Positions 1 through 64,000 of a stretch of DNA of 64,000 nt are shown here, piece after piece (position 1 is the first letter of the stretch; every line of letters starts with the position of its first letter). The DNA lies in assembly GCA_032622095.1 (NCBI GenBank), contig CP136061.1, positions 87,784,983-87,848,982 on the forward strand. The letters run 5' to 3'. Made by a program: the position numbers and the translations under genes. The notes beneath the pieces were generated by a model. It worked only from the letters and a program-made list of their open reading frames with translations, did no database searches and had not been told where the DNA came from. The stretch is from Siphonodentalium dalli (lineage: Eukaryota > Mollusca > Scaphopoda > Gadilida > Siphonodentaliidae).

Positions 1-242
1 AAGTGAATATTCCATTAGGAACGGAAATTTTGACAATAAAGCCAAAAATATGACCCTATTTCAAATGGCTCTATAAATTTTTCCACAAAGCGGATGTTAT
101 GGGATTTTGGATATTTTCCCCCCAGATTCTGCCCGACACAATGATAGCAAAAACAGATTATTACCAATTTGTTCTATAGGTTCAATGATTCAACGACCAG
201 ACTATTAACTATTAGTCCAGGAGATATTGATCAATCTCTGCA

Positions 243-250
243 CCCCCCCC
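243..250 (+). repeat. Length-variable poly-C tract
   Basis: A run of 8 C here; the equivalent run has 11, 17, 10, 9, 9, 10, 10, 11, 11, 11, 11, 11, 10 and 9 C in units 2 to 15. The base before it also varies: units 3-8 read GCAA before the run, the others GCA. This is ordinary slippage and a useful unit fingerprint, though homopolymer length is also where sequencing error is most likely. Confidence 0.85.
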
Positions 251-319
251 AGGACTTAACTTCACCCCACTAATTTTCTTCCTTAAGGTCTCCTCTAATT
301 TTTTTCACTTGTTAACAAG

Positions 320-381
320 AAAAAAAAGTGGCCGCAGAGACTCCAGACAAGATGGCGTCCATCATGGCGGCCATTTTTTTT
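320..381. repeat. Foldback at the leader/pol junction
   Basis: Eight A followed by GTGGCCGC (320-335) pairs with GCGGCCA followed by eight T (367-381), about 15 paired bases with one bulged G and a loop of about 31 nt. The loop and right arm hold the repeated core ATGGCG. The structure is present in all 15 units (one unpaired change in the A run of units 10 and 11) and ends within a few bases of where the retroelement reading frame becomes recognisable. It may be a relic of the end of another element or of the joining event; its origin is not known. Confidence 0.6.
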
Positions 382-385
382 AAAT

Positions 386-2845
386 GCACCAGGTTTCTTT
401 GATCTTCGTGCTGGTAAAACTCTTCTTGGTGGATATTACTCTGCTAAGTTGAAACCTCACCAACTAAAGTGGCTTACTTGCGAGATTGAAGCACTCGCCT
501 TTGGTTCCGCTGTTAATCATTGGAGCTCCTGTATCTTGGAATCTGAGAACACCACCCAGATTTTGACTGATTCCCGCCCTTGTGTTCAAGCTTTCTCAAA
601 ATTGTCTAGAGGTGAATTCTCCACTAGTGCCCGCATTTCTTTCTTCCTATCCACCCTAAGTCGGTATAAAGTCATTCTCAAGCATATTTCTGGTTCTAAC
701 AATCTCCTGACTGACTTTCTCAGTCGTAATTCTGCCCAGTGTCCATCTAGTAGTTGTCAACTTTGTCAGTTTGTGTCACAAAACGAAGATTCAACCATCA
801 GATCTATCAGTGTTGAAGATATTCTTTCCAGATCAGCCCCCATGCCGTTTCTCAATGCTACTTCTTGGCAAGCTGCCCAACAAACTTGTCCTACCTTGCG
901 TCGAGTTTATTCGCACCTCTCTCAGGGCACTCGACCTCCCAAAAAGGCTAGAGGTGTTCGTGATGCCAAGAAATACATGAAAGTTTGCACCATTAGTGGT
1001 GGCCTGCTGATAGTCAAGAATACTACACCATTTCAACATGCTTTCAACACTATAGTTGTCCCAAACCATATTCTATCTGGCCTGCTGACAGCTTTACATA
1101 TCCGCCTACAACACCCAACTGCCTGTCAGCTCAAGAAATTATTTCAGAGATATTTTTTTGCACTTAGTATTGACCAAGTTATTGATTCTGTCACTAAGTC
1201 CTGTGCTCAGTGTACTGCCATCAGTACACATCCTCCCACCCTTCCAGTGTTCACATCATCACCTCCATGCTCTGGTCCTGGATTGGAGTTCGCCTGCGAC
1301 ATAATGTGTCGAGCAAGACAGAAGATACTTGTCGTCCGGGATACTTTCTCTTCCTTTACATTTGCTCGCCTAATTGCTGACGAGCGGTCTTCGACCTTGC
1401 GTGATGGTATTTTCGAAGTCATTGCTGATCTTAAATCACCTCAGGGTTGTTCTATTCGCACAGACGGTGCTCCTGCTTTCCAAAGTCTTTGCAATTATCC
1501 TACCATGGAGGCTCGTAGCATTCGTATTGAGATTGGCCGTCTCAAGAATTGTAACACGAAGCCTGTCGCAGAGAAGGCCATCCAAGAGCTCCAGTGTGAG
1601 TTGAAGCGACTCTCTCCGGCAGGAGACCCAGTGTCAACCACTCATCTTGCTGAAGCTGTCAGTATCCTTAACTCACGTATACGTAATCGTGGGCTCAGTG
1701 CTAAGGAGATTCTTTATCAGAGGGATGGCATCTCTGGCCAACAGTTGAACTTCTCTGACAAGGACATGGCTTCCAAACAGTTTGATCTCCGCACCAGAAA
1801 CCACGAATCCAGCGCCCGCTCTAAAGTACCCCATGGATGTTTCCTTCATCAGAAGTTCTCACCTGGTGATCTTGTCTTTCTCAAGTCTGAAGGCGATAAA
1901 CATCATGCTCGCCCCCAATACATTGTCACCTCATCTGATGAGAGCTATGTACACATTCAGAAATTTGCTGGCCAACAGTTCAGATCCAAGACATATCCCG
2001 TCAAGCCTTCTGAAATTATCCGCTCCCCTAACATGGTGTCATCCACATCAGATTACGGCAAGGAAACTGATCCCTTTGCATCAAACACCTCAGACGCAGA
2101 ATCAGAATCAGAACAAACACCATCTGACACACATGACTCAGGCCAATTACCCAATGATTCACACAGCTTGCTCAATCCACAAGATTCAGATTCAGATGAT
2201 GAATCTCACACACAGCAGACCCTTCCTACACCAAACATGGAATCACTGAACTAAATGGTTTCCCATAGGCGACAGTGTTAACGTTTCCGCCAAATTCACT
2301 GAATTGAAGCCTGCAGGCCATACCAGTGATGTTTACCCAGCTAGATTGACACCAGTTGATCACGAAAATGCAAGAAAAATCATAGGTCATGTGTTTACTT
2401 TTAAAAATAAATCCCCAAGTGTACGACGGGGTTATCCCACAGCCAAATTTGATCTGGAAAAATCCAGAACTACAGCAGCTAGTTAAATAAATTTCCCGCT
2501 CACAAAAATCCATTCCCCCATTCATTCACCAGTTTAAATTATTTAGATATTATGTACAAATCAAATAAACGCGATGTCATCCTTTAACAACGTGTCGCAT
2601 GTATCAGGTGAAGGTCATTCTTCAGTTACCTTCACCTTTAGGGTTCCACGGTGTACTCGCTCCCCGACTCTAGAACACATTTAGCTCCCTGATTCCACAT
2701 GCAACCCTCTCATGATTGCGATTTCTCAAATCAGGCCAACCCCGGTGGTAGCCCGTGTTCAAAGCCCACCAGGCGTTCTGAACGACCTTCTAGAAAACCT
2801 AATTGGCTCTTATCCGGTGTTTGGGATACCTCCGAGGATGTGTAA
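386..2845 (+). pseudogene. Ty3/gypsy pol 3' fragment, unit 1 (RNase H end, integrase), carrying a transposon insert
   Basis: Fossil fragment of a Ty3/gypsy pol gene. The frame becomes recognisable near 386 (GFFDLRAG, then GGYYSAKL), which matches the middle of RNase H; the upstream part of pol, with reverse transcriptase, protease and gag, is absent. It then runs through the integrase and into the acidic tail, where a reverse M element (2239-2696) interrupts it; retroelement sequence resumes at 2697 and ends at 2845. Apart from that insertion the frame looks open. No ATG lies at the head of the frame, so it is not an independent gene start. Residue landmarks are given under the unit 3 copy. 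Confidence 0.88.
2239..2696 (-). mobile_element. M element at site A, unit 1 (non-autonomous DNA transposon)
   Basis: 458 bp inserted in the pol tail. Flanked on both sides by ACAT (2235-2238 and 2697-2700), present once in units lacking the insert (for example unit 3 near 11054), so a 4-bp target-site duplication is directly visible. Ends are GGAATCA and TGATTCC; the imperfect terminal inverted repeat covers about 19 bp, 16 matching (GGAATCACTGAACTAAATG against GGAATCAGGGAGCTAAATG). An internal 10-bp inverted repeat (AGGTGAAGGT/ACCTTCACCT) lies near 2608-2639. No transposase, so a MITE-like element. Four-bp duplications occur in several superfamilies (Chapaev, Ginger, some Sola and Academ); I cannot choose among them. 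Strand is given relative to the site B copies. Confidence 0.9.
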
Positions 2846-2974
2846 AGTAAATCTAACTCAGCAATTTTCCCTTCATTCCAATTCTGCTCTGCATTTTATC
2901 TCAAATTCCATGGAATTTTGTATTTTTGCTTTATTACCTTAACATTCTTTTTACCGGTATGTTCTTTATTTCAC
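2846..2974 (+). other. Retroelement 3' untranslated segment
   Basis: About 130 bp between the end of the pol frame and the polypurine tract, T-rich with no gene. Found at the same relative place in every complete unit. Confidence 0.6.
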
Positions 2975-2988
2975 AAGGAGAGAAGAGA
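2975..2988 (+). promoter_or_regulatory. Candidate polypurine tract (plus-strand primer)
   Basis: AAGGAGAGAAGAGA, 14 purines in a row, followed by C and then TG. In LTR retrotransposons a purine tract directly upstream of the 3' LTR primes plus-strand DNA synthesis. Position after the pol end and before a TG-starting block fits. It is the same in all 14 complete units. Confidence 0.6.
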
Positions 2989-2989
2989 C

Positions 2990-3153
2990 TGCGCCACTCT
3001 CTTGAGTTCGTTAATTATCATGTACGAGTAGAGTTATCTTTCCTCTTCCATGCGTTTGTCTTTTGCATTAAATGTTCGTACTAAAAACGTGTTCTCGAAT
3101 ATTTACTAAAATAGTTCGATAAGAGAGCTACAGTTCCTCTACGTGACGCCACA
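2990..3153 (+). mobile_element. Candidate 3' LTR, uninterrupted, 164 bp (unit 1)
   Basis: Block starting TGCGC one base after the purine tract and ending GCCACA, so TG...CA ends. Short LTRs under 200 bp are known in Ty3/gypsy elements of bivalves such as Steamer, so the size is acceptable. The right end is the weaker boundary: it is supported because the tail duplication (3157-3399) begins within a few bases of it. No 5' LTR exists in the unit to confirm it. Site B is empty here (CTCTTGAGTTCG). Confidence 0.4.
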
Positions 3154-3156
3154 AGT

Positions 3157-3399
3157 TTGACCGAATGTACTAAACTATTGTTTTGTTAAACTAATTAGCA
3201 GTTTTGTATTGGTCACGGGGAGGGACAGTGACACACCGGGCCGACCATGGTGTTCGAAAATTTTGAAATCTGAACAAGAAAATCGCAAAATCCTAGCATC
3301 TAGACTAGCCCCTAGTCTTCTTAGAGTTGGAAATTTCAAACCTGACACCCCCCACTTAGGTTGGAAAATTTCCAAATGATGACAATTCCAATGACAATG
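3157..3399 (+). repeat. Tail duplication, copy D1
   Basis: Begins TTGACCGAATGTACT and reads through GTCACGGGGAGGGACAGTGA to a TTGGAAAATTTCC motif. It aligns with the following block (D2) at both ends, but holds about 95 bp in the middle (about 3234-3325) that D2 lacks. The two are well diverged, so the duplication is much older than the array amplification. Confidence 0.7.
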
Positions 3400-3556
3400 T
3401 TGACCAAATGTATGACAATATTGTTTTCTTAAATTTAGTAGCTGTTTTGACTAGCCACGGGGGAGGACCAGGACACAAGCTTAAATGTTGGAAATTTCCA
3501 ACCTGTCACCCCCCTAAGGTTGGAACATTTCCAACTGATGACCATTCCAACTAATG
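3400..3556 (+). repeat. Tail duplication, copy D2
   Basis: Begins TTGACCAAATGTATGAC and continues with GCCACGGGGGAGGACCAGGA, parallel to D1. Contains the perfect palindrome GTTGGAAATTTCCAAC at 3487-3502 and further half-sites GGTTGGAA/TTTCCAAC. D1 carries the same motif in less perfect form. Confidence 0.7.
3487..3502. repeat. 16-bp perfect palindrome GTTGGAAATTTCCAAC
   Basis: Self-complementary over all 16 bases and surrounded by near copies of the GGAAA/TTTCC half-sites about every 40 bp. Units 8 and 9 carry one change here (GGAAACTTCC), so the perfect form is not kept in every unit. Confidence 0.75.
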
Positions 3557-3603
3557 TTTTGGAAGGTATGAAATTTCCAACTGTTGAAAATGTTGCCAAA
3601 GTT

Positions 3604-3628
3604 GGGGGGGGGGGGTGAGACACCCCCC
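3604..3628. repeat. Poly-G tract with adjacent hairpin
   Basis: Twelve G, then TG, loop AGA, then CACCCCCC: an 8-bp stem GGGGGGTG/CACCCCCC (3610-3628) with a 3-nt loop. The G run varies between units (9 in unit 8, 10 in unit 6, 13 in unit 14). C-rich CACACCCCC repeats follow. Such runs can form quadruplex or hairpin structures and slip during replication. Confidence 0.7.
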
Positions 3629-3730
3629 ACACCCCCTCTAGCCACACCCCCCTCTAGCCACATCCCTGTTTGTAACATCACATACATGTATTATTTTGGA
3701 CAATCCGTGCATGGTGGCATATATCTGGCA

Positions 3731-4038
3731 ATTGTTGGGTGGTTTGGAACACACATTGGTGGGTTTGGACACGATTTAGATAGTTATGGGACTCTAGTTG
3801 AGTTGGTTGGGATACTTATTAGGTGGTTTGGGACACAAGCTGGCTGATTTGGAACGCTAGTTATATATGGACAGTGACACTCGTCGGTTGGTTTTAGCAT
3901 AATATTATATGATGGTGGTTTGAGACGCCCGTTGCCTGGTTTTAAGCTTTATCACTCGTTAATTGGTTTTGGACATTCATTTAATGTATTTGTAAGTCTA
4001 ATTGATTTTGACAGTCATCTAGTGACATATAGGACTAT
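3731..4038 (+). repeat. Degenerate minisatellite, period about 21 bp
   Basis: Roughly 14 worn copies of a motif near GTTGGTTGGTTTGGGACACTA can be followed by eye: GGGTGGTTTGGAACAC, GGTGGGTTTGGACAC, GTGGTTTGGGACAC, GGCTGATTTGGAACGC, AATTGGTTTTGGACATTC and others, spaced 18-26 bp. Copies within a unit are far more diverged than the same copy between units, so the minisatellite predates amplification. Confidence 0.65.
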
Positions 4039-4315
4039 AGGCTATAAATTATAATCGATATGAGAAGATTTAGATAGAAATAAATGAGAATACTTAAATT
4101 TTTAACTTTCGACAGACATTTTTGGATACCGAAGAGAAAATCCTCGGTATATAGCTCACTATTATCGAATTATTATTGGACATCATTTACGGTGGGGCAA
4201 ATAGCTATTCACGCGAATAAATTTCGTCTAAATGGAAACAATTTGGTGAACTTTAGCGAAATTTGCGCCATTTTGTCCGACATTTTGGATTTTGACAATC
4301 GAATGGTACACGAGA

Positions 4316-4331
4316 TGACATAATTATGTCA
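4316..4331. repeat. 16-bp perfect palindrome TGACATAATTATGTCA
   Basis: Self-complementary over 16 bases, repeated once per unit about 75-90 bp before the unit boundary used here. It resembles a pair of half-sites for a dimeric DNA-binding protein, but no binding protein can be named from sequence alone. Confidence 0.7.
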
Positions 4332-4793
4332 GTCATGACAATACTATTAATTTGTTTTTGTTGCATGTTTCTGCCATATCTAAAACTTAAATATAAATGT
4401 CATTTAAGTGAATATTCCATTAGGAACGGAAATTTTGACAATAAAGCCAAAAATATGACCCTATTTCAAATGGCTCTATAAATTTTTCCACAAAGCGGAT
4501 GTTATGGGATTTTGGATATTTTCCCCCCAGATTCTGCCCGACACAATGATAGCAAAAACAGATTATTACCAATTTGTTCTATAGGTTCAATGATTCAACG
4601 ACCAGACTATTAACTATTAGTCCAGGAGATATTGGTCAACCTCTGCACCCCCCCCCCCAGGACTTAACTTCACCCCACTAATTTTCTTCCTTAAGGTCTC
4701 CTCTAATTTTTTTCACTTGTTAACAAGAAAAAAAAGTGGCCGCAGAGACTCCAGACAAGATGGCGTCCATCATGGCGGCCATTTTTTTTAAAT

Positions 4794-6794
4794 GCACCAG
4801 GTTTCTTTGATCTTCGTGCTGGTAAAACTCTTCTTGGTGGATATTACTCTGCTAAGTTGAAACCTCACCAACTAAAGTGGCTTACTTGCGAGATTGAAGC
4901 ACTCGCCTTTGGTTCCGCTGTTAATCATTGGAGCTCCTGTATCTTGGAATCTGAGAACACCACCCAGATTTTGACTGATTCCCGCCCTTGTGTTCAAGCT
5001 TTCTCAAAATTGTCTAGAGGTGAATTCTCCACTAGTGCCCGCATTTCTTTCTTCCTATCCACCCTAAGTCGGTATAAAGTCATTCTCAAGCATATTTCTG
5101 GTTCTAACAATCTCCTGACTGACTTTCTCAGTCGTAATTCTGCCCAGTGTCCATCTGGTAGTTGTCAACTTTGTCAGTTTGTGTCACAAAACGAAGATTC
5201 AACCATCAGATCTATCAGTGTTGAAGATATTCTTTCCAGATCAGCCCCCATGCCGTTTCTCAATGCTACTTCTTGGCAAGCTGCCCAACAAACTTGTCCT
5301 ACCTTGCGTCGAGTTTATTCGCACCTCTCTCAGGGCACTCGACCTCCCAAAAAAGGCTAGAGGTGTTCGTGATGCCAAGAAATACATGAAAGTTTGCACC
5401 ATTAGTGGTGGCCTGCTGATAGTCAAGAATACTACACCATTTCAACATGCTTTCAACACTATAGTTGTCCCAAACCATATTCTATCTGGCCTGCTGACAG
5501 CTTTACATATCCGCCTACAACACCCAACTGCCTGTCAGCTCAAGAAATTATTTCAGAGATATTTTTTTGCACTTAGTATTGACCAAGTTATTGATTCTGT
5601 CACTAAGTCCTGTGCTCAGTGTACTGCCATCAGTAAACTTCCTCCCACCCTTCCAGTGTTCACATCATCACCTCCATGCTCTGGTCCTGGATTGGAGTTC
5701 GCCTGCGACATAATGTGTCGAGCAAGACAGAAGATACTTGTCGTCCGGGATACTTTCTCTTCCTTTACATTTGCTCGCCTAATTGCTGACGAGCGGTCTT
5801 CGACCTTGCGTGATGGTATTTTCGAAGTCATTGCTGATCTTAAATCACCTCAGGGTTGTTCTATTCACACAGACGGTGCTCCTGCTTTCCAAAGTCTTTG
5901 AAATTATCCTACCATGGAGGCTCGTAGCATTCGTATTGAGATTGGCCGTCTCAAGAATTGTAACAAGAAGCCTGTCGCAGAGAAGGCCATCCAAGAGCTC
6001 CAGTGTGAGTTGAAGCTACTCTCTCCGACAGGAGACCCAGTGTCAACCACTCATCTTGCTGAAGCTGTCAGTATCCTTAACTCACGTATACGTAATGGTG
6101 GGCTCAGTGCTAAGGAGATTCTTTATCAGAGGGATGGCATCTCTGGCCAACAGTTGAACTTCTCTGACAAGGACATGGCTTCCAAACAGTTTGATCTCCG
6201 CACCAGAAACCACGAATCCAGCGCCCGCTCTAAAGTACCCCATGGATGTTTCCTTCATCAGAAGTTCTCACCTGGTGATCTTGTCTTCCTCAAGTCTGAA
6301 GGCGATAAACATCATGCTCGCCCCCAATACATTGTCACCTCATCTGATGAGAGCTATACGTACACATTCAGAAATTTGCTGGCCAACAGTTCAGATCCAA
6401 GACATATCCCGTCAAGCCTTCTGAAATTATCCGCTCCCCTAACATGGTGTCATCCACATCAGCTTACGGCAAGGAAACTGATCCCTTTGCATCAAACACC
6501 TCAGACTCAGAATCAGAATCAGAACAAACACCATCTGACACACATGACTCAGGCCAATTACCCAATGATTCACACAGCTTGCTCAATCCACAAGATTCAG
6601 ATTCAGATGATGAATCTCACACACAGCAGACGCTTCCTACACCAAACATGCAACCCTCTCATGATTGCGATTTCTCAAATCAGGCCAACCCCGGTGGTAG
6701 CCCGTGTTCAAAGCCCACCAGGCGTTCTGAACGACCTTCTAGAAAACCTAATTGGCTCTTATCCGGTGTTTGGGATACCTCCGAGGATGTGTAA
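4794..6794 (+). pseudogene. Ty3/gypsy pol 3' fragment, unit 2
   Basis: Same RNase H end plus integrase fragment as in other units, reaching the retroelement's own C-terminus. Broken in about three places. The same set of breaks occurs in units 5 and 6, so these three descend from one already broken copy. Confidence 0.87.
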
Positions 6795-6938
6795 AGTAAA
6801 TCTAACTCAGCAATTTTCCCTTCATTCCAATTCTGCTCTGCATTTTATCTCAAATTCCATGGAATTTTGTATTTTTGCTTTATTACCTTAACATTCTTTT
6901 TACCGGTATGTTCTTTATTTTACAAGGAGAGAAGAGAC

Positions 6939-7564
6939 TGCGCAACTCTCTTGAGGAATCAGGGAGCTAAATGTGTTCTAGAGTAGGGGAGCGAGTACAC
7001 CGTGGAACCCTAAAGGTGAAGGTAACTGAAGAATGACCTTCACCTGATACATGCGACACGTTGTTAAAGGATGACATCGCGTTTATTTGATTTGTACATA
7101 ATATCTAAATAATTTAAACTGGTGAATGAATGGGGGAATGGATTTTTGTGAGCGGGAAATTTATTTAACTAGCTGCTGTAGTTCGGGATTTTTCCAGATC
7201 AAATTTGGCTGTGTGATAGCCCCGTCGTACACTTGGGGATTTATTTTTAAAAGTAAACACATGACCTATGATTTTTCTTGCATTTTCGTGATCAACTGGT
7301 GTCAATCTAGCTGGGTAAACATCACTGGTATGGCCTGCAGGCTTCAATTCAGTGAATTTGGCGGAAACGTTAACACTGTCGCCTATGGGAAACCATTTAG
7401 TTCAGTGATTCCTTGAGTTCGTTAATTATCATGTACGAGTAGAGTTATCTTTCCTCTTCCATGCGTTTGTCTTTTGCATTAAATGTTCGTACTAAAAACG
7501 TGTTCTCGAATATTTACTAAAATAGTTCGATAAGAGAGCTACAGTTCCTCTACGTGACGCCACA
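6939..7564 (+). mobile_element. Candidate 3' LTR split by M, unit 2
   Basis: The 164-bp block enlarged to 626 bp by M (458 bp) plus its 4-bp duplication; the insertion lies 16 bp from the TG start. Confidence 0.4.
6955..7412 (+). mobile_element. M element at site B, unit 2
   Basis: 458 bp inside the LTR-like block, flanked by TTGA on both sides (6951-6954 and 7413-7416); unit 1 shows the empty site CTCTTGAGTTCG. Orientation opposite to the site A copies. Its sequence differs from the reverse complement of the unit 1 copy by only a handful of bases and its length is identical, so the two insertions are close in age and came from near-identical sources. Internal 10-bp inverted repeat at 7014-7045. 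Confidence 0.9.
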
Positions 7565-11346: not shown

Positions 11347-11972
11347 TGCGCAACTCTCTTGAGGAATCAGGGAGCTAAATGTGTTCTAGAGTAGGGGAGC
11401 GAGTACACCGTGGAACCCTAAAGGTGAAGGTAACTGAAGAATGACCTTCACCTGATACATGCGACACGTTGTTAAAGGATGACATCGCGTTTATTTGATT
11501 TGTACATAATATCTAAATAATTTAAACTGGTGAATGAATGGGGGAATGGATTTTTGTGAGCGGGAAATTTATTTAACTAGCTGCTGTAGTTCGGGATTTT
11601 TCCAGATCAAATTTGGCTGTGTGATAGCCCCGTCGTACACTTGGGGATTTATTTTTAAAAGTAAACACATGACCTATGATTTTTCTTGCATTTTCGTGAT
11701 CAACTGGTGTCAATCTAGCTGGGTAAACATCACTGGTATGGCCTGCAGGCTTCAATTCAGTGAATTTGGCGGAAACGTTAACACTGTCGCCTATGGGAAA
11801 CCATTTAGTTCAGTGATTCCTTGAGTTCGTTAATTATCATGTACGAGTAGAGTTATCTTTCCTCTTCCATGCGTTTGTCTTTTGCATTAAATGTTCGTAC
11901 TAAAAACGTGTTCTCGAATATTTACTAAAATAGTTCGATAAGAGAGCTACAGTTCCTCTACGTGACGCCACA
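11347..11972 (+). mobile_element. Candidate 3' LTR split by M, unit 3
   Basis: 626 bp including the insert; same ends TGCGC and GCCACA. Confidence 0.4.
11363..11820 (+). mobile_element. M element at site B, unit 3
   Basis: 458 bp, TTGA on both sides (11359-11362, 11821-11824). Same insertion event as in unit 2, carried along by amplification. Confidence 0.9.
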
Positions 11973-15747: not shown

Positions 15748-16373
15748 TGCGCAACTCTCTTGAGGAATCAGGGAGCTAAATGTGTTCTAGAGTAGGGGAG
15801 CGAGTACACCGTGGAACCCTAAAGGTGAAGGTAACTGAAGAATGACCTTCACCTGATACATGCGACACGTTGTTAAAGGATGACATCGCGTTTATTTGAT
15901 TTGTACATAATATCTAAATAATTTAAACTGGTGAATGAATGGGGGAATGGATTTTTGTGAGCGGGAAATTTATTTAACTAGCTGCTGTAGTTCGGGATTT
16001 TTCCAGATCAAATTTGGCTGTGTGATAGCCCCGTCGTACACTTGGGGATTTATTTTTAAAAGTAAACACATGACCTATGATTTTTCTTGCATTTTCGTGA
16101 TCAACTGGTGTCAATCTAGCTGGGTAAACATCACTGGTATGGCATGCAGGCTTCAATTCAGTGAATTTGGCGGAAACGTTAACACTGTCGCCTATGGGAA
16201 ACCATTTAGTTCAGTGATTCCTTGAGTTCGTTAATTATCATGTACGAGTAGAGTTATCTTTCCTCTTCCATGCGTTTGTCTTTTGCATTAAATGTTCGTA
16301 CTAAAAACGTGTTCTCGAATATTTACTAAAATAGTTCGATAAGAGAGCTACAGTTCCTCTACGTGACGCCACA
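15748..16373 (+). mobile_element. Candidate 3' LTR split by M, unit 4
   Basis: 626 bp including the insert. Confidence 0.4.
15764..16221 (+). mobile_element. M element at site B, unit 4
   Basis: 458 bp, TTGA on both sides (15760-15763, 16222-16225). One private base change near 16144 (GGCATGC instead of GGCCTGC). Confidence 0.9.
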
Positions 16374-20150: not shown

Positions 20151-20776
20151 TGCGCAACTCTCTTGAGGAATCAGGGAGCTAAATGTGTTCTAGAGTAGGG
20201 GAGCGAGTACACCGTGGAACCCTAAAGGTGAAGGTAACTGAAGAATGACCTTCACCTGATACATGCGACACGTTGTTAAAGGATGACATCGCGTTTATTT
20301 GATTTGTACATAATATCTAAATAATTTAAACTGGTGAATGAATGGGGGAATGGATTTTTGTGAGCGGGAAATTTATTTAACTAGCTGCTGTAGTTCGGGA
20401 TTTTTCCAGATCAAATTTGGCTGTGTGATAGCCCCGTCGTACACTTGGGGATTTATTTTTAAAAGTAAACACATGACCTATGATTTTTCTTGCATTTTCG
20501 TGATCAACTGGTGTCAATCTAGCTGGGTAAACATCACTGGTATGGCCTGCAGGCTTCAATTCAGTGAATTTGGCGGAAACGTTAACACTGTCGCCTATGG
20601 GAAACCATTTAGTTCAGTGATTCCTTGAGTTCGTTAATTATCATGTACGAGTAGAGTTATCTTTCCTCTTCCATGCGTTTGTCTTTTGCATTAAATGTTC
20701 GTACTAAAAACGTGTTCTCGAATATTTACTAAAATAGTTCGATAAGAGAGCTACAGTTCCTCTACGTGACGCCACA
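20151..20776 (+). mobile_element. Candidate 3' LTR split by M, unit 5
   Basis: 626 bp including the insert. Confidence 0.4.
20167..20624 (+). mobile_element. M element at site B, unit 5
   Basis: 458 bp, TTGA on both sides (20163-20166, 20625-20628). Confidence 0.9.
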
Positions 20777-40924: not shown

Positions 40925-43384
40925 GCACCAGGTTTCTTTGATCTTCGTGCTGGTAAAACTCTTCTTGGTGGATATTACTCTGCTAAGTTGAAACCTCACC
41001 AACTAAAGTGGCTTACTTGCGAGATTGAAGCACTCGCCTTTGGTTCCGCTGTTAATCATTGGAGCTCCTGTATCTTGGAATCTGAGAACACCACCCAGAT
41101 TTTGACTGATTCCCGCCCTTGTGTTCAAGCTTTCTCAAAATTGTCTAGAGGTGAATTCTCCACTAGTGCCCGCATTTCTTTCTTCCTATCCACCCTAAGT
41201 CGGTATAAAGTCATTCTCAAGCATATTTCTGGTTCTAACAATCTCCTGACTGACTTTCTCAGTCGTAATTCTGCCCAGTGTCCATCTGGTAGTTGTCAAC
41301 TTTGTCAGTTTGTGTCACAAAACGAAGATTCAACCATCAGATCTATCAGTGTTGAAGATATTCTTTCCAGATCAGCCCCCATGCCGTTTCTCAATGCTAC
41401 TTCTTGGCAAGCTGCCCAACAAACTTGTCCTACCTTGCGTCGAGTTTATTCGCACCTCTCTCAGGGCACTCGACCTCCCAAAAAGGCTAGAGGTGTTCGT
41501 GATGCCAAGAAATACATGAAAGTTTGCACCATTAGTGGTGGCCTGCTGATAGTCAAGAATACTACACCATTTCAACATGCTTTCAACACTATAGTTGTCC
41601 CAAACCATATTCTATCTGGTCTGCTGACAGCTTTACATATCCGCCTACAACACCCAACTGCCTGTCAGCTCAAGAAATTATTTCAGAGATATTTTTTTGC
41701 ACTTAGTATTGACCAAGTTATTGATTCTGTCACTAAGTCCTGTGCTCAGTGTACTGCCATCAGTAAACTTCCTCCCACCCTTCCAGTGTTCACATCATCA
41801 CCTCCATGCTCTGGTCCTGGATTGGAGTTCGCCTGCGACATAATGTGTCGAGCAAGACAGAAGATACTTGTCGTCCGGGATACTTTCTCTTCCTTTACAT
41901 TTGCTCGCCTAATTGCTGACGAGCGGTCTTCGACCTTGCGTGATGGTATTTTCGAAGTCATTGCTGATCTTAAATCACCTCAGGGTTGTTCTATTCGCAC
42001 AGACGGTGCTCCTGCTTTCCAAAGTCTTTGCAATTATCCTACCATGGAGGCTCGTAGCATTCGTATTGAGATTGGCCGTCTCAAGAATTGTAACAAGAAG
42101 CCTGTCGCAGAGAAGGCCATCCAAGAGCTCCAGTGTGAGTTGAAGCGACTCTCTCCGACAGGAGACCCAGTGTCAACCACTCATCTTGCTGAAGCTGTCA
42201 GTATCCTTAACTCACGTATACGTAATCGTGGGCTCAGTGCTAAGGAGATTCTTTATCAGAGGGATGGCATCTCTGGCCAACAGTTGAACTTCTCTGACAA
42301 GGACATGGCTTCCAAACAGTTTGATCTCCGCACCAGAAACCACGAATCCAGCGCCCGCTCTAAAGTACCCCATGGATGTTTCCTTCATCAGAAGTTCTCA
42401 CCTGGTGATCTTGTCTTCCTCAAGTCTGAAGGCGATAAACATCATGCTCGCCCCCAATACATTGTCACCTCATCTGATGAGAGCTATGTACACATTCAGA
42501 AATTTGCTGGCCAACAGTTCAGATCCAAGACATATCCCGTCAAGCCTTCTGAAATTATCCGCTCCCCTAACATGGTGTCATCCACATCAGATTACGGCAA
42601 GGAAACTGATCCCTTTGCATCAAACACCTCAGACGCAGAATCAGAATCAGAACAAACACCATCTGACACACATGACTCAGGCCAATTACCCAATGATTCA
42701 CACAGCTTGCTCAATCCACAAGATTCAGATTCAGATGATGAATCTCACACACAGCAGACCCTTCCTACACCAAACATGGAATCACTGAACTAAATGGTTT
42801 CCCATAGGCGACAGTGTTAACGTTTCCGCCAAATTCACCGAATTGAAGCCTGCAGGCCATACCAGTGATGTTTACCCAGCTAGATTGACACCAGTTGATC
42901 ACGAAAATGCAAGAAAAATCATAGGTCATGTGTTTACTTTTAAAAATAAATTCCCAAGTGTACGACGGGGTTATCCCACAGCCAAATTTGATCTGGAAAA
43001 ATCCAGAACTACAGCAGCTAGTTAAATAAATTTCCCGCTCACAAAAATCCATTCCCCCATTCATTCACCAGTTTAAATTATTTAGATATTATGTACAAAT
43101 CAAATAAACGCGATGTCATCCTTTAACAACGTGTCGCATGTATAAGGTGAAGGTCATTCTTCAGTTACCTTCACCTTTAGGGTTCCACGGTGTACTCGCT
43201 CCCCGACTCTAGAACACATTTAGCTCCCTGATTCCACATGCAACCCTCTCATGATTGCGATTTCTCAAATCAGGCCAACCCCGGTGGTAGCCCGTGTTCA
43301 AAGCCCACCAGGCGTTCTGAACGACCTTCTAGAAAACCTAATTGGCTCTTATCCGGTGTTTGGGATACCTCCGAGGATGTGTAA
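40925..43384 (+). pseudogene. Ty3/gypsy pol 3' fragment, unit 10, carrying a transposon insert
   Basis: Open from the junction to the M insertion at 42778-43235. Confidence 0.88.
42778..43235 (-). mobile_element. M element at site A, unit 10
   Basis: 458 bp, ACAT on both sides (42774-42777, 43236-43239). Shares internal variants (TTCACCGAATTG, AAATTCCC) with the copies in units 12 and 14. Confidence 0.9.
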
Positions 43385-45330: not shown

Positions 45331-47790
45331 GCACCAGGTTTCTTTGATCTTCGTGCTGGTAAAACTCTTCTTGGTGGATATTACTCTGCTAAGTTGAAAC
45401 CTCACCAACTAAAGTGGCTTACTTGCGAGATTGAAGCACTCGCCTTTGGTTCCGCTGTTAATCATTGGAGCTCCTGTATCTTGGAATCTGAGAACACCAC
45501 CCAGATTTTGACTGATTCCCGCCCTTGTGTTCAAGCTTTCTCAAAATTGTCTAGAGGTGAATTCTCCACTAGTGCCCGCATTTCTTTCTTCCTATCCACC
45601 CTAAGTCGGTATAAAGTCATTCTCAAGCATATTTCTGGTTCTAACAATCTCCTGACTGACTTTCTCAGTCGTAATTCTGCCCAGTGTCCATCTGGTAGTT
45701 GTCAACTTTGTCAGTTTGTGTCACAAAACGAAGATTCAACCATCAGATCTATCAGTGTTGAAGATATTCTTTCCAGATCAGCCCCCATGCCGTTTCTCAA
45801 TGCTACTTCTTGGCAAGCTGCCCAACAAACTTGTCCTACCTTGCGTCGAGTTTATTCGCACCTCTCTCAGGGCACTCGACCTCCCAAAAAGGCTAGAGGT
45901 GTTCGTGATGCCAAGAAATACATGAAAGTTTGCACCATTAGTGGTGGCCTGCTGATAGTCAAGAATACTACACCATTTCAACATGCTTTCAACACTATAG
46001 TTGTCCCAAACCATATTCTATCTGGCCTGCTGACAGCTTTACATATCCGCCTACAACACCCAACTGCCTGTCAGCTCAAGAAATTATTTCAGAGATATTT
46101 TTTTGCACTTAGTATTGACCAAGTTATTGATTCTGTCACTAAGTCCTGTGCTCAGTGTACTGCCATCAGTAAACTTCCTCCCACCCTTCCAGTGTTCACA
46201 TCATCACCTCCATGCTCTGGTCCTGGATTGGAGTTCGCCTGCGACATAATGTGTCGAGCAAGACAGAAGATACTTGTCGTCCGGGATACTTTCTCTTCCT
46301 TTACATTTGCTCGCCTAATTGCTGACGAGCGGTCTTCGACCTTGCGTGATGGTATTTTCGAAGTCATTGCTGATCTTAAATCACCTCAGGGTTGTTCTAT
46401 TCGCACAGACGGTGCTCCTGCTTTCCAAAGTCTTTGCAATTATCCTACCATGGAGGCTCGTAGCATTCGTATTGAGATTGGCCGTCTCAAGAATTGTAAC
46501 AAGAAGCCTGTCGCAGAGAAGGCCATCCAAGAGCTCCAGTGTGAGTTGAAGCGACTCTCTCCGACAGGAGACCCAGTGTCAACCACTCATCTTGCTGAAG
46601 CTGTCAGTATCCTTAACTCACGTATACGTAATCGTGGGCTCAGTGCTAAGGAGATTCTTTATCAGAGGGATGGCATCTCTGGCCAACAGTTGAACTTCTC
46701 TGACAAGGACATGGCTTCCAAACAGTTTGATCTCCGCACCAGAAACCACGAATCCAGCGCCCGCTCTAAAGTACCCCATGGATGTTTCCTTCATCAGAAG
46801 TTCTCACCTGGTGATCTTGTCTTCCTCAAGTCTGAAGGCGATAAACATCATGCTCGCCCCCAATACATTGTCACCTCATCTGATGAGAGCTATGTACACA
46901 TTCAGAAATTTGCTGGCCAACAGTTCAGATCCAAGACATATCCCGTCAAGCCTTCTGAAATTATCCGCTCCCCTAACATGGTGTCATCCACATCAGATTA
47001 CGGCAAGGAAACTGATCCCTTTGCATCAAACACCTCAGACGCAGAATCAGAATCAGAACAAACACCATCTGACACACATGACTCAGGCCAATTACCCAAT
47101 GATTCACACAGCTTGCTCAATCCACAAGATTCAGATTCAGATGATGAATCTCACACACAGCAGACCCTTCCTACACCAAACATGGAAACACTGAACTAAA
47201 TGGTTTCCCATAGGCGACAGTGTTAACGTTTCCGCCAAATTCACTGAATTGAAGCCTGCAGGCCATACCAGTGATGTTTACCCAGCTAGATTGACACCAG
47301 TTGATCACGAAAATGCAAGAAAAATCATAGGTCATGTGTTTACTTTTAAAAATAAATCCCCAAGTGTACGACGGGGTTATCCCACAGCCAAATTTGATCT
47401 GGAAAAATCCAGAACTACAGCAGCTAGTTAAATAAATTTCCCGCTCACAAAAATCCATTCCCCCATTCATTCACCAGTTTAAATTATTTAGATATTATGT
47501 ACAAATCAAATAAACGCGATGTCATCCTTTAACAACGTGTCGCATGTATAAGGTGAAGGTCATTCTTCAGTTACCTTCACCTTTAGGGTTCCACGGTGTA
47601 CTCGCTCCCCGACTCTAGAACACATTTAGCTCCCTGATTCCACATGCAACCCTCTCATGATTGCGATTTCTCAAATCAGGCCAACCCCGGTGGTAGCCCG
47701 TGTTCAACGCCCACCAGGCGTTCTGAACGACCTTCTAGAAAACCTAATTGGCTCTTATCCGGTGTTTGGGATACCTCCGAGGATGTGTAA
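45331..47790 (+). pseudogene. Ty3/gypsy pol 3' fragment, unit 11, carrying a transposon insert
   Basis: Open from the junction to the M insertion at 47184-47641. Confidence 0.88.
47184..47641 (-). mobile_element. M element at site A, unit 11
   Basis: 458 bp, ACAT on both sides (47180-47183, 47642-47645). One terminal base differs (GGAAACA), the only A copy with a changed end. Confidence 0.9.
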
Positions 47791-49737: not shown

Positions 49738-52197
49738 GCACCAGGTTTCTTTGATCTTCGTGCTGGTAAAACTCTTCTTGGTGGATATTACTCTGCTAAG
49801 TTGAAACCTCACCAACTAAAGTGGCTTACTTGCGAGATTGAAGCACTCGCCTTTGGTTCCGCTGTTAATCATTGGAGCTCCTGTATCTTGGAATCTGAGA
49901 ACACCACCCAGATTTTGACTGATTCCCGCCCTTGTGTTCAAGCTTTCTCAAAATTGTCTAGAGGTGAATTCTCCACTAGTGCCCGCATTTCTTTCTTCCT
50001 ATCCACCCTAAGTCGGTATAAAGTCATTCTCAAGCATATTTCTGGTTCTAACAATCTCCTGACTGACTTTCTCAGTCGTAATTCTGCCCAGTGTCCATCT
50101 GGTAGTTGTCAACTTTGTCAGTTTGTGTCACAAAACGAAGATTCAACCATCAGATCTATCAGTGTTGAAGATATTCTTTCCAGATCAGCCCCCATGCCGT
50201 TTCTCAATGCTACTTCTTGGCAAGCTGCCCAACAAACTTGTCCTACCTTGCGTCGAGTTTATTCGCACCTCTCTCAGGGCACTCGACCTCCCAAAAAGGC
50301 TAGAGGTGTTCGTGATGCCAAGAAATACATGAAAGTTTGCACCATTAGTGGTGGCCTGCTGATAGTCAAGAATACTACACCATTTCAACATGCTTTCAAC
50401 ACTATAGTTGTCCCAAACCATATTCTATCTGGCCTGCTGACAGCTTTACATATCCGCCTACAACACCCAACTGCCTGTCAGCTCAAGAAATTATTTCAGA
50501 GATATTTTTTTGCACTTAGTATTGACCAAGTTATTGATTCTGTCACTAAGTCCTGTGCTCAGTGTACTGCCATCAGTAAACTTCCTCCCACCCTTCCAGT
50601 GTTCACATCATCACCTCCATGCTCTGGTCCTGGATTGGAGTTCGCCTGCGACATAATGTGTCGAGCAAGACAGAAGATACTTGTCGTCCGGGATACTTTC
50701 TCTTCCTTTACATTTGCTCGCCTAATTGCTGACGAGCGGTCTTCGACCTTGCGTGATGGTATTTTCGAAGTCATTGCTGATCTTAAATCACCTCAGGGTT
50801 GTTCTATTCGCACAGACGGTGCTCCTGCTTTCCAAAGTCTTTGCAATTATCCTACCATGGAGGCTCGTAGCATTCGTATTGAGATTGGCCGTCTCAAGAA
50901 TTGTAACAAGAAGCCTGTCGCAGAGAAGGCCATCCAAGAGCTCCAGTGTGAGTTGAAGCGACTCTCTCCGACAGGAGACCCAGTGTCAACCACTCATCTT
51001 GCTGAAGCTGTCAGTATCCTTAACTCACGTATACGTAATCGTGGGCTCAGTGCTAAGGAGATTCTTTATCAGAGGGATGGCATCTCTGGCCAACAGTTGA
51101 ACTTCTCTGACAAGGACATGGCTTCCAAACAGTTTGATCTCCGCACCAGAAACCACGAATCCAGCGCCCGCTCTAAAGTACCCCATGGATGTTTCCTTCA
51201 TCAGAAGTTCTCACCTGGTGATCTTGTCTTCCTCAAGTCTGAAGGCGATAAACATCATGCTCGCCCCCAATACATTGTCACCTCATCTGATGAGAGCTAT
51301 GTACACATTCAGAAATTTGCTGGCCAACAGTTCAGATCCAAGACATATCCCGTCAAGCCTTCTGAAATTATCCGCTCCCCTAACATGGTGTCATCCACAT
51401 CAGATTACGGCAAGGAAACTGATCCCTTTGCATCAAACACCTCAGACGCAGAATCAGAATCAGAACAAACACCATCTGACACACATGACTCAGGCCAATT
51501 ACCCAATGATTCACACAGCTTGCTCAATCCACAAGATTCAGATTCAGATGATGAATCTCACACACAGCAGACCCTTCCTACACCAAACATGGAATCACTG
51601 AACTAAATGGTTTCCCATAGGCGACAGTGTTAACGTTTCCGCCAAATTCACCGAATTGAAGCCTGCAGGCCATACCAGTGATGTTTACCCAGCTAGATTG
51701 ACACCAGTTGATCACGAAAATGCAAGAAAAATCATAGGTCATGTGTTTACTTTTAAAAATAAATTCCCAAGTGTACGACGGGGTTATCCCACAGCCAAAT
51801 TTGATCTGGAAAAATCCAGAACTACAGCAGCTAGTTAAATAAATTTCCCGCTCACAAAAATCCATTCCCCCATTCATTCACCAGTTTAAATTATTTAGAT
51901 ATTATGTACAAATCAAATAAACGCGATGTCATCCTTTAACAACGTGTCGCATGTATAAGGTGAAGGTCATTCTTCAGTTACCTTCACCTTTAGGGTTCCA
52001 CGGTGTACTCGCTCCCCGACTCTAGAACACATTTAGCTCCCTGATTCCACATGCAACCCTCTCATGATTGCGATTTCTCAAATCAGGCCAACCCCGGTGG
52101 TAGCCCGTGTTCAACGCCCACCAGGCGTTCTGAACGACCTTCTAGAAAACCTAATTGGCTATTATCCGGTGTTTGGGATACCTCCGAGGATGTGTAA
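49738..52197 (+). pseudogene. Ty3/gypsy pol 3' fragment, unit 12, carrying a transposon insert
   Basis: Open from the junction to the M insertion at 51591-52048. Confidence 0.88.
51591..52048 (-). mobile_element. M element at site A, unit 12
   Basis: 458 bp, ACAT on both sides (51587-51590, 52049-52052). Confidence 0.9.
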
Positions 52198-56288: not shown

Positions 56289-56907
56289 TGCGCAACTCTC
56301 TTGAGTTCGTTAAGGTTACAGTGAAGTAATTCGATTGGTAGCGCCCTCCGACGGATTTTGGACCAAGATGCAGGAGAGAATTAAAAAAATTCTGGGCTCT
56401 GGTTGGTTAATAGTAGTTTCGATATTTAAACATATAAAATACATGCAATCACTCCTCTTGAAATTTCAGACTCCAAACAAAACATTGGCACATTGTAAAG
56501 CACGTGGTTCCTAGATTTTATTTTTTTGGTGTGAGGTAAAAAATGTCAATATTTTTTTCATGCAATTCTGACTCTCGATTATAAATCCCAAATTTAAAGG
56601 TACATTCCATGCTCGACGATATGATTTTTTTCATGCAGAAACTTTGCGCAGATGCCAATTCCGGTGACCGTGTACTCATTTATCACAATTTTTGGATAGT
56701 CAGGGCTGCAGGCCATTATATGTTAACACTGAGGCCTATGGGAAATAATTACTTCACTGTAACCTAAATTATCATGTACGAGTAGAGTTATCTTTCCTCT
56801 TCCATGCGTTTGTCTTTTGCATTAAATGTTCGTACTAAAAACGTGTTCTCGAATATTTACTAAAATAGTTCGATAAGAGAGCTACAGTTCCTCTACGTGA
56901 CGCCACA
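56289..56907 (+). mobile_element. Candidate 3' LTR split by element N, unit 13
   Basis: 164-bp block enlarged to 619 bp by N and its duplicated target bases. Confidence 0.4.
56314..56764 (+). mobile_element. Element N, a second non-autonomous DNA transposon, private to unit 13
   Basis: 451 bp with perfect 18-bp terminal inverted repeats, GGTTACAGTGAAGTAATT at 56314-56331 and its complement at 56747-56764. Left flank is TTAA (56310-56313), right flank TAAA (56765-56768); against the uninterrupted sequence GTTCGTTAATTATC this fits a 4-bp duplication with one changed base. No coding capacity. Its right end resembles M: read inward, both have GG..(3 variable)CA.TGAA, then TTTCCCATAGGC, two differing bases, CAGTGTTAAC, then GCCTGCAG. 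N and M are therefore diverged members of one transposon group. Confidence 0.88.
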
Positions 56908-58544: not shown

Positions 58545-61004
58545 GCACCAGGTTTCTTTGATCTTCGTGCTGGTAAAACTCTTCTTGGTGGATATTACTC
58601 TGCTAAGTTGAAACCTCACCAACTAAAGTGGCTTACTTGCGAGATTGAAGCACTCGCCTTTGGTTCCGCTGTTAATCATTGGAGCTCCTGTATCTTGGAA
58701 TCTGAGAACACCACCCAGATTTTGACTGATTCCCGCCCTTGTGTTCAAGCTTTCTCAAAATTGTCTAGAGGTGAATTCTCCACTAGTGCCCGCATTTCTT
58801 TCTTCCTATCCACCCTAAGTCGGTATAAAGTCATTCTCAAGCATATTTCTGGTTCTAACAATCTCCTGACTGACTTTCTCAGTCGTAATTCTGCCCAGTG
58901 TCCATCTGGTAGTTGTCAACTTTGTCAGTTTGTGTCACAAAACGAAGATTCAACCATCAGATCTATCAGTGTTGAAGATATTCTTTCCAGATCAGCCCCC
59001 ATGCCGTTTCTCAATGCTACTTCTTGGCAAGCTGCCCAACAAACTTGTCCTACCTTGCGTCGAGTTTATTCGCACCTCTCTCAGGGCACTCGACCTCCCA
59101 AAAAGGCTAGAGGTGTTCGTGATGCCAAGAAATACATGAAAGTTTGCACCATTAGTGGTGGCCTGCTGATAGTCAAGAATACTACACCATTTCAACATGC
59201 TTTCAACACTATAGTTGTCCCAAACCATATTCTATCTGGTCTGCTGACAGCTTTACATATCCGCCTACAACACCCAACTGCCTGTCAGCTCAAGAAATTA
59301 TTTCAGAGATATTTTTTTGCACTTAGTATTGACCAAGTTATTGATTCTGTCACTAAGTCCTGTGCTCAGTGTACTGCCATCAGTAAACTTCCTCCCACCC
59401 TTCCAGTGTTCACATCATCACCTCCATGCTCTGGTCCTGGATTGGAGTTCGCCTGCGACATAATGTGTCGAGCAAGACAGAAGATACTTGTCGTCCGGGA
59501 TACTTTCTCTTCCTTTACATTTGCTCGCCTAATTGCTGACGAGCGGTCTTCGACCTTGCGTGATGGTATTTTCGAAGTCATTGCTGATCTTAAATCACCT
59601 CAGGGTTGTTCTATTCGCACAGACGGTGCTCCTGCTTTCCAAAGTCTTTGCAATTATCCTACCATGGAGGCTCGTAGCATTCGTATTGAGATTGGCCGTC
59701 TCAAGAATTGTAACAAGAAGCCTGTCGCAGAGAAGGCCATCCAAGAGCTCCAGTGTGAGTTGAAGCGACTCTCTCCGACAGGAGACCCAGTGTCAACCAC
59801 TCATCTTGCTGAAGCTGTCAGTATCCTTAACTCACGTATACGTAATCGTGGGCTCAGTGCTAAGGAGATTCTTTATCAGAGGGATGGCATCTCTGGCCAA
59901 CAGTTGAACTTCTCTGACAAGGACATGGCTTCCAAACAGTTTGATCTCCGCACCAGAAACCACGAATCCAGCGCCCGCTCTAAAGTACCCCATGGATGTT
60001 TCCTTCATCAGAAGTTCTCACCTGGTGATCTTGTCTTCCTCAAGTCTGAAGGCGATAAACATCATGCTCGCCCCCAATACATTGTCACCTCATCTGATGA
60101 GAGCTATGTACACATTCAGAAATTTGCTGGCCAACAGTTCAGATCCAAGACATATCCCGTCAAGCCTTCTGAAATTATCCGCTCCCCTAACATGGTGTCA
60201 TCCACATCAGATTACGGCAAGGAAACTGATCCCTTTGCATCAAACACCTCAGACGCAGAATCAGAATCAGAACAAACACCATCTGACACACATGACTCAG
60301 GCCAATTACCCAATGATTCACACAGCTTGCTCAATCCACAAGATTCAGATTCAGATGATGAATCTCACACACAGCAGACCCTTCCTACACCAAACATGGA
60401 ATCACTGAACTAAATGGTTTCCCATAGGCGACAGTGTTAACGTTTCCGCCAAATTCACCGAATTGAAGCCTGCAGGCCATACCAGTGATGTTTACCCAGC
60501 TAGATTGACACCAGTTGATCACGAAAATGCAAGAAAAATCATAGGTCATGTGTTTACTTTTAAAAATAAATTCCCAAGTGTACGACGGGGTTATCCCACA
60601 GCCAAATTTGATCTGGAAAAATCCAGAACTACAGCAGCTAGTTAAATAAATTTCCCGCTCACAAAAATCCATTCCCCCATTCATTCACCAGTTTAAATTA
60701 TTTAGATATTATGTACAAATCAAATAAACGCGATGTCATCCTTTAACAACGTGTCGCATGTATAAGGTGAAGGTCATTCTTCAGTTACCTTCACCTTTAG
60801 GGTTCCACGGTGTACTCGCTCCCCGACTCTAGAACACATTTAGCTCCCTGATTCCACATGCAACCCTCTCATGATTGCGATTTCTCAAATCAGGCCAACC
60901 CCGGTGGTAGCCCGTGTTCAACGCCCACCAGGCGTTCTGAACGACCTTCTAGAAAACCTAATTGGCTCTTATCCGGTGTTTGGGATACCTCCGAGGATGT
61001 GTAA
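58545..61004 (+). pseudogene. Ty3/gypsy pol 3' fragment, unit 14, carrying a transposon insert
   Basis: Open from the junction to the M insertion at 60398-60855. Confidence 0.88.
60398..60855 (-). mobile_element. M element at site A, unit 14
   Basis: 458 bp, ACAT on both sides (60394-60397, 60856-60859). Confidence 0.9.
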
Positions 61005-61148
61005 AGTAAATCTAACTCAGCAATTTTCCCTTCATTCCAATTCTGCTCTGCATTTTATCTCAAATTCCATGGAATTTTGTATTTTTGCTTTATTACCTTA
61101 ACATTCTTTTTACCGGTATGTTCTTTATTTCACAAGGAGAGAAGAGAC

Positions 61149-61312
61149 TGCGCCACTCTCTTGAGTTCGTTAATTATCATGTACGAGTAGAGTTATCTTG
61201 CCTCTTCCATGCGTTTGTCTTTTGCATTAAATGTTCGTACTAAAAACGTGTTCTCGAATATTTACTAAAATAGTTCGATAAGAGAGCTACAGTTCCTCTA
61301 CGTGACGCCACA
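61149..61312 (+). mobile_element. Candidate 3' LTR, uninterrupted, unit 14
   Basis: 164 bp after the purine tract. Confidence 0.4.
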
Positions 61313-62951
61313 AGTTTGACCGAATGTACTAAACTATTGTTTTGTTAAACTAATTAGCAGTTTTGTATTGGTCACGGGGAGGGACAGTGACACACCGGGC
61401 CGACCATGGTGTTCGAAAATTTTGAAATCTGAACAAGAAAATCGCAAAATCCTAGCATCTAGACTAGCCCCTAGTCTTCTTAGAGTTGGAAATTTCAAAC
61501 CTGACACCCCCCCACTTAGGTTGGAAAATTTCCAAATGATGACAATTCCAATGACAATGTTGACCAAATGTATGACAATATTGTTTTCTTAAATTTAGTA
61601 GCAGTTTTGACTAGCCACGGGGGAGGACCAGGACACAAGCTTAAATGTTGGAAATTTCCAACCTGTCACCCCCCTAAGGTTGGAAAATTTCCAACTGATG
61701 ACCATTCCAACTAATGTTTTGGAAGGTATGAAATTTCCAACTGTTGAAAATGTTGCCAAAGTTGGGGGGGGGGGGGTGAGACACCCCCACACCCCCTCTA
61801 GCCACACCCCCCTCTAGCCACATCCCTGTTTGTAACATCACATACATGTATTATTTTGGACAATCCGTGCATGGTGGCATATATCTGGCAATTGTTGGGT
61901 GGTTTGGAACACACATTGGTGGGTTTGGACACGATTTATATAGTTATGGGACTCTAGTTGAGTTGGTTGGGATACTTATTAGGTGGTTTGGGACACAAGC
62001 TGGCTGATTTGGAACGCTAGTTATATATGGACAGTGACACTCGTCGGTTGGTTTTAGCATAATATTATATGATGGTGGTTTGAGACGCCCGTTGCCTGGT
62101 TTTAAGCTTTATCACTCGTTAATTGGTTTTGGACATTCATTTAATGTATTTGTAAGTCTAATTGATTTTGACAGTCATCTAGTGACATATAGGACTATAG
62201 GCTATAAATTATAATCGATATGAGAAGATTTAGATAGAAATAAATGAGAATACTTAAATTTTTAACTTTCGACAGACATTTTTGGATACCGAAGAGAAAA
62301 TCCTCGGTATATAGCTCACTATTATCGAATTATTATTGGACATCATTTACGGTGGGGCAAATAGCTATTCACGCGAATAAATTTCGTCTAAATGGAAACA
62401 ATTTGGTGAACTTTAGCGAAATTTGCGCCATTTTGTCCGACATTTTGGATTTTGACAATCGAATGGTACACGAGATGACATAATTATGTCAGTCATGACA
62501 ATACTATTAATTTGTTTTTGTTGCATGTTTCTGCCATATCTAAAACTTAAATATAAATGTCATTTAAGTGAATATTCCATTAGGAACGGAAATTTTGACA
62601 ATAAAGCCAAAAATATGACCCTATTTCAAATGGCTCTATAAATTTTTCCACAAAGCGGATGTTATGGGATTTTGGATATTTTCCCCCCAGATTCTGCCCG
62701 ACACAATGATAGCAAAAACAGATTATTACCAATTTGTTCTATACGTTCAATGATTCAACGACCAGACTATTAACTATTAGTCCAGGAGATATTGGTCAAC
62801 CTCTGCACCCCCCCCCAGGACTTAACTTCACCCCACTAATTTTCTTCCTTAAGGTCTCCTCTAATTTTTTTCACTTGTTAACAAGAAAAAAAAGTGGCCG
62901 CAGAGACTCCAGACAAGATGGCGTCCATCATGGCGGCCATTTTTTTTAAAT
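61313..62951. other. Non-coding tail of unit 14 plus leader of unit 15
   Basis: Same layout as 3154-4793; G run of 13. No gene seen. Confidence 0.7.
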
Positions 62952-64000
62952 GCACCAGGTTTCTTTGATCTTCGTGCTGGTAAAACTCTTCTTGGTGGAT
63001 ATTACTCTGCTAAGTTGAAACCTCACCAACTAAAGTGGCTTACTTGCGAGATTGAAGCACTCGCCTTTGGTTCCGCTGTTAATCATTGGAGCTCCTGTAT
63101 CTTGGAATCTGAGAACACCACCCAGATTTTGACTGATTCCCGCCCTTGTGTTCAAGCTTTCTCAAAATTGTCTAGAGGTGAATTCTCCACTAGTGCCCGC
63201 ATTTCTTTCTTCCTATCCACCCTAAGTCGGTATAAAGTCATTCTCAAGCATATTTCTGGTTCTAACAATCTCCTGACTGACTTTCTCAGTCGTAATTCTG
63301 CCCAGTGTCCATCTGGTAGTTGTCAACTTTGTCAGTTTGTGTCACAAAACGAAGATTCAACCATCAGATCTATCAGTGTTGAAGATATTCTTTCCAGATC
63401 AGCCCCATGCCGTTTCTCAATGCTACTTCTTGGCAAGCTGCCCAACAAACTTGTCCTACCTTGCGTCGAGTTTATTCGCACCTCTCTCAGGGCACTCGAC
63501 CTCCCAAAAAGGCTAGAGGTGTTCGTGATGCCAAGAAATACATGAAAGTTTGCACCATTAGTGGTGGCCTGCTGATAGTCAAGAATACTACACCATTTCA
63601 ACATGCTTTCAACACTATAGTTGTCCCAAACCATATTCTATCTGGTCTGCTGACAGCTTTACATATCCGCCTACAACACCCAACTGCCTGTCAGCTCAAG
63701 AAATTATTTCAGAGATATTTTTTTGCACTTAGTATTGACCAAGTTATTGATTCTGTCACTAAGTCCTGTGCTCAGTGTACTGCCATCAGTAAACTTCCTC
63801 CCACCCTTCCAGTGTTCACATCATCACCTCCATGCTCTGGTCCTGGATTGGAGTTCGCCTGCGACATAATGTGTCGAGCAAGACAGAAGATACTTGTCGT
63901 GCGGGATACTTTCTCTTCCTTTACATTTGCTCGCCTAATTGCTGACGAGCGGTCTTCGACCTTGCGTGATGGTATTTTCGAAGTCATTGCTGATCTTAAA
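62566..64000 (+). repeat. Array unit 15, cut by the window end
   Basis: First 1435 bp of a further unit in register; shows the array continues. Which inserts it carries cannot be seen. Confidence 0.95.
62952..64000 (+). pseudogene. Ty3/gypsy pol 3' fragment, unit 15, incomplete in the window
   Basis: RNase H end, zinc finger and the first part of the integrase core; broken about once within the visible part. Confidence 0.85.

Follow-up and report, generated by a model that had tools for sequence, protein, structure and literature searches.

A macrosatellite built from part of a Ty3-like LTR element, its flank and a filler, with a probable local origin

The window, that is the whole stretch of 64,000 nucleotides analyzed here (C1:87784983-87848982), is filled by a tandem array, whose features are listed in Table 1. 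From the unit starts we recovered exactly the number and range given in an earlier note on this DNA, 14 complete units of 4392-4865 bp that follow one another with no spacer. Comparison of the window with itself gave direct repeats with periods near 4.40 and 4.86 kb and no inverted match longer than 500 bp. When 100 kb was added on each side, the array was found to extend beyond the window in both directions. It begins at a gap of 100 Ns that lies 41.6 kb to the left, ends approximately 20.8 kb to the right, and in its length of about 126 kb contains 28 unit starts (U01-U28). Nearly all spacings of these starts are 4392-4411 bp, and two are 4857-4865 bp. Together with an edge unit at C1:89.53 Mb, 29 units were examined; the genome searched comprises 2.23 Gb in 9 contigs. 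The marker families PF14830, PF00379 and PF01353 gave no match in it, which is a weak negative because the control genomes gave none either.

The locus is a macrosatellite in that its kilobase-sized units lie head to tail in a single orientation. The units are homogeneous, the median difference between them being 0.33%. This value comes from pairwise comparison of all 29 units (406 pairs) over segments free of joining or removal, and individual pairs differ by 0-1.05%. Within U01-U28, neighbours have on average 6.7 differences and units at least nine apart about 14, and U28 at the right edge is the most divergent, with 28 differences from its nearest unit. Divergence rising with distance is the pattern that unequal exchange and conversion would be expected to leave.

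Table 1. Positions of the array, its parts and its MITE inserts (window coordinates unless units are named)
Feature	Position	Strand	Remark
Window share of the array	1-64000	+	14 complete units spanning 404-62969, with an incomplete unit on either side
Unit starts, first part	404, 4812, 9223, 13624, 18024, 22427, 26829, 31694
Unit starts, second part	36086, 40943, 45349, 49756, 54166, 58563, 62970
Lengths of complete units 1-7 (bp)	4408, 4411, 4401, 4400, 4403, 4402, 4865
Lengths of complete units 8-14 (bp)	4392, 4857, 4406, 4407, 4410, 4397, 4407
3′ flank of the ancestral insertion, apparently native; first part is a dispersed repeat	3149-4617	+	Tail of the unit starting at 404; reference-unit bases 149-1617
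Filler, 194 bp, from the interior of another dispersed repeat; connects flank to RNase H	4618-4811	+	Reference-unit bases 1618-1811
3′ part of the Ty3-like element, RNase H break to polypurine tract	4812-6938	+	Reference unit (starts at 4812); opens every unit
First bases of the 3′ LTR, then MITE	6939-6954	+	Reference unit; dispersed copies, edge copy
TTGA-site MITE, 458 bp, in the 3′ LTR	6955-7412	+	Reference unit
Remaining 3′ LTR after the MITE	7413-7560	+	Reference unit; 3002-3148 in the preceding unit; transferred via unit spacing
TTGA-site MITE, further copies (about)	11363-11820, 15764-16221, 20167-20624, 24570-25027, 29433-29890, 38689-39146	+
TTGA-site MITE, by unit	U11-U16, U18	+	Inside the 3′ LTR
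ACAT-site MITE	2239-2696	-	
ACAT-site MITE, further copies	28666-29123, 33529-33986, 37922-38379, 42778-43235, 47184-47641, 51591-52048, 60398-60855	-
ACAT-site MITE, by unit	U09, U10, U16-U21, U23-U27	-
GACT-site MITE, by unit	Edge unit, U01-U08	-
ACCA-site MITE, by unit	U28	+
Related but distinct MITE in the LTR of U22	56314-56764	+	TTAA-like site, imperfect duplication; by eye

In the phase chosen in the earlier note, every unit starts at a common break in RNase H and ends with a common tail, as had been stated there. This tail consists of flank and filler; its last 194 bp belong to a third, unrelated repeat that the earlier description did not contain. The proposed composition, the 3′ part of an element plus flanking DNA, was borne out as far as it went, and the filler fragment and MITEs must be added to it.

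The source element was characterized from five dispersed copies (L012-L015 and L018, among the matches listed in a genome DNA search). Its boundary at RNase H is sharp, because all five match from that point and have element sequence upstream of it. In four of them the 3′ LTR ends at a common base, within a few, and is followed by differing DNA, and the fifth ends earlier; the polypurine tract and the start of the LTR are visible in three of the four copies that reach the LTR. No 5′ LTR of a dispersed copy was found in L041. A fuller copy (hereafter the edge copy) lies at C1:89.53 Mb. Upstream of the RNase H break it retains RT, gag and the 5′ LTR, the last with a deletion. The hallmarks of an LTR element are present in it, namely an LTR pair, a TGG-starting primer-binding site after the deleted 5′ LTR, a purine tract preceding the 3′ LTR and a short target duplication. 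The duplication was read by eye as CCAC, which is likely and remains uncertain because the 5′ LTR lost bases.

When one unit frame was compared with Pfam, an RT_RNaseH match starting at position 41 of 105 of the profile was obtained (E 0.0045, under the Pfam cut-off) together with zf-H2C2, likewise under the cut-off, and the integrase core rve was absent from the matches at E 0.01 or better. A PDB search with the unit frame gave no match. Residues that we take to be the D-D-E integrase motif were read by eye in the element part of the reference unit. Pieces of the edge copy matched RVT_1 over the Pfam cut-off and the aspartyl protease gag-asp_proteas under it. BEL/Pao elements have the order protease, RT, RNase H and integrase as in Ty3/gypsy. 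Ty3-like is the best label for the source element, with BEL/Pao as a less favoured possibility.

The long open integrase frame attributed to the units in the earlier note is found in part of them, since the frame is open to the native integrase stop in 3 of the 29 units, taking the sequences as they stand. It has 615-616 codons and ends at a stop within the MITE in 10, and is stopped at codon 322 or earlier in 16. The damage is common within blocks, the first stop being codon 299 in U01-U08 and codon 182 in U11, U14 and U15. With so few units open to the native stop, selection on the integrase frame is not indicated. There is likewise no indication of a function for the array or the frame.

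The interior of the unit is its variable part, with a 458-bp MITE at differing places that lengthens most units from 3.95 to 4.40 kb. It is short, has terminal inverted repeats of 25 nt (80%), and is flanked by target duplications of constant length: its four sites carry four different 4-bp duplications (read in one copy per site), after which they are named in Table 1. This MITE is present in 28 of the 29 units, twice in U16 and in U18, which form the 4.86-kb class. U22 gave no match to it and has instead, in this one unit only, the related MITE, in which a terminal inverted repeat of 18 bp was read by eye and which has an end resembling that of the first; every one of the 29 units therefore carries some insert, one or two. 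Identity to the MITE query is 99.8-100% at the TTGA site, 99.8% at GACT, 99.6% at ACCA and 98.5-99.1% at ACAT. A single MITE that hopped from site to site in the array is not favoured, as the empty sites (one unit per site) are free of footprints and the copies differ between sites.

The MITE is also common elsewhere in the genome. It occurs at 100% in at least 40 of the genomic places listed, 34 of them outside the window, and 16 of those belong to a tandem series on C4 (C4:140504810-140526902) with a spacing of about 1353 bp, at least 16 copies at 100% and one step of double length. One unit of that series holds the MITE at a TA-rich site where, by eye, TATA is duplicated. MITE pairs 1352-1374 bp apart were also seen on C3 and C4.

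The five insert sites of the array span about 312 bp, for which the chance is about 2 in 10,000 if insertion were uniform on a 3950-bp circle, in a test that was framed post hoc and used hand-entered positions. Because of this clustering within a unit of about 3.95 kb, the inserts in all units examined and the occurrence of the MITE in the C4 series, it could be imagined that the MITE promotes array growth and that insert-bearing units are preferentially amplified, possibly by stalling replication or promoting exchange, an idea that we regard as improbable.

The flank occupies approximately 1.47 kb per unit and is common to all units examined, as is the filler, save in the last unit. DNA just upstream of the 5′ LTR of the edge copy matches, at about 85% over 70 bp, one half of a stretch that lies later in the unit, and the first bases beyond the 3′ LTR match the other half of the same stretch at 76-78% over about 85 bp. 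Because the two sides of the insertion thus resemble the two halves of one dispersed repeat, the flank looks like native insertion-site DNA, the later stretch being an uninterrupted relative of the split repeat; this is an empty-site argument that rests on a paralogue. The repeat that supplied the filler extends past both filler ends in the two other loci read (L042 and L043). Inspected by eye, the joint of filler and RNase H shares about 2 bp and the joint of flank and filler shares 0 bp.

In the assembly, the edge copy lies 1.7 Mb from the array in the opposite orientation. Downstream of the RNase H break it continues through MITE, LTR, flank, filler and the next RNase H, and then its contig ends at a gap of 100 Ns. 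The start of the array on the side of the window is likewise at a 100-N gap, which falls within a unit. On the simplest reading, a segment of 1.79 Mb between the two gaps is reversed in the scaffold and both ends come from one array; such an inversion is probable because the array DNA that stops at each gap is oriented as such a joining would require. The segment in question is C1:87743347-89533934, and the gaps are C1:87743247-87743346 and C1:89533935-89534034. A comparison of repeat continuity across the two gaps gave nothing clear for the inversion. The edge copy would then be the edge of the array, a reading that depends on the two gaps. The array in this way draws attention to what is probably a scaffolding error, an inversion of about 1.79 Mb.

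At the right edge, the flank continues beyond unit base 1617 into DNA absent from the units, and the filler is missing. A relative of the filler (76%) lies inverted approximately 3.3 kb past this edge, and the last unit has an extra insertion of about 460 bp after unit base 1607 (C1 ~87869790-87870260) with an 8-bp duplication, GACCAGAC, read by eye, which we take to be a hAT-type hallmark. Given the inverted relative and the extra insertion, the right edge may itself have been rearranged.

As read from these comparisons, a Ty3-like LTR element sits within a dispersed repeat, and one joint runs from a point in the flank through 194 bp of unrelated filler to a point in the RNase H of the element and is repeated by the units examined. 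The 5′ part of the element is kept at one edge, and the flank without filler continues at the other. We consider it likely that the macrosatellite was born locally, by one duplication in place that was later expanded. A single break-repair or template-switching event would have made the first duplication and captured the filler, and unequal exchange and gene conversion among out-of-register units may then have produced the array of at least 28 units. MITEs would have entered several sites by separate insertions, and units marked in this way would have multiplied with their neighbours. That a single joined segment was amplified, as the earlier note had argued, is supported by both edges, since the edge copy runs into flank, filler and next unit, and the flank continues on the other side.

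Another route to the same units is an extrachromosomal circle of the joined segment, copied as a rolling circle and reintegrated as a finished array. One review counts rolling-circle amplification among the models for transposon satellites (PMC12628747), the near-identity of neighbouring units is compatible with it, and homology-guided reinsertion at the original place could mimic the in-place pattern. However, the array lies between a fuller element copy and a continuing flank, as duplication in place predicts, and neither variants nor MITE sites are uniform, both being graded along its length, so that we think this route unlikely. It is still less probable that the assembler multiplied one or few real units. 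Array and edge copy do both stop at 100-N gaps, where assembly failed, and the count of at least 28 units is as assembled, but the differing MITE sites, the shared and private variants and the divergent edge unit are not what copying of one unit is expected to give. Multiple independent or nested insertions of truncated elements at a single site, in whose favour the genome does contain other element copies, are hardly credible and were rejected, because the units share flank, RNase H joint and (save the last) filler, whereas none of the five dispersed copies read has either flank or filler.

The array belongs to a known class, the transposon-derived macrosatellites. The earlier note had called a satellite of this kind unusual; it is less so, as two reviews name pieces of LTR, gag and pol from LTR elements as sources of satellites and also list MITE-based ones (PMC12628747, PMC9659126). 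Like the satellites covered there, the present array repeats a portion of an LTR element in tandem; unlike them in general, its unit also contains filler and native flank, and a fuller copy stands at an edge. Human K222 is likewise a 5′-deleted LTR element multiplied with its flanks through recombination and not by new insertions, but it is spread over the pericentromeres of nine chromosomes, whereas the present array is local and head to tail (PMC4425911). The long tandem LTR-element arrays of Cassandra are also attributed to recombination, but what is repeated there is the LTR together with the internal domain of a non-coding element, without flank (PMC7215508). In Lathyrus sativus, 9 of 11 satellites studied are described as derived from short arrays inside LTR elements. 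The satellite E3900 of rye has a unit of about 3.9 kb. It likewise carries a coding piece of an LTR element, but this is a plant satellite with a gag piece, whereas RNase H and integrase are found here (PMC9659126).

At the level of titles and abstract openings, no description was found of an array that combines part of an element with native flank and filler and of which both edges are known. Age or homogenization hides the origin of most satellites; the birth of this one is unusually clearly readable. The fuller source copy, the founding joint with its filler, the far-side flank and the MITE marks of sub-blocks have survived, so that a detailed and testable course from single copy to array can be put forward. 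Elsewhere in the genome, three integrase-core matches of equal score in the same open frame lie exactly 9050 bp apart (C6:61713664, 61722714 and 61731764), and they probably represent another tandem array with an integrase frame.
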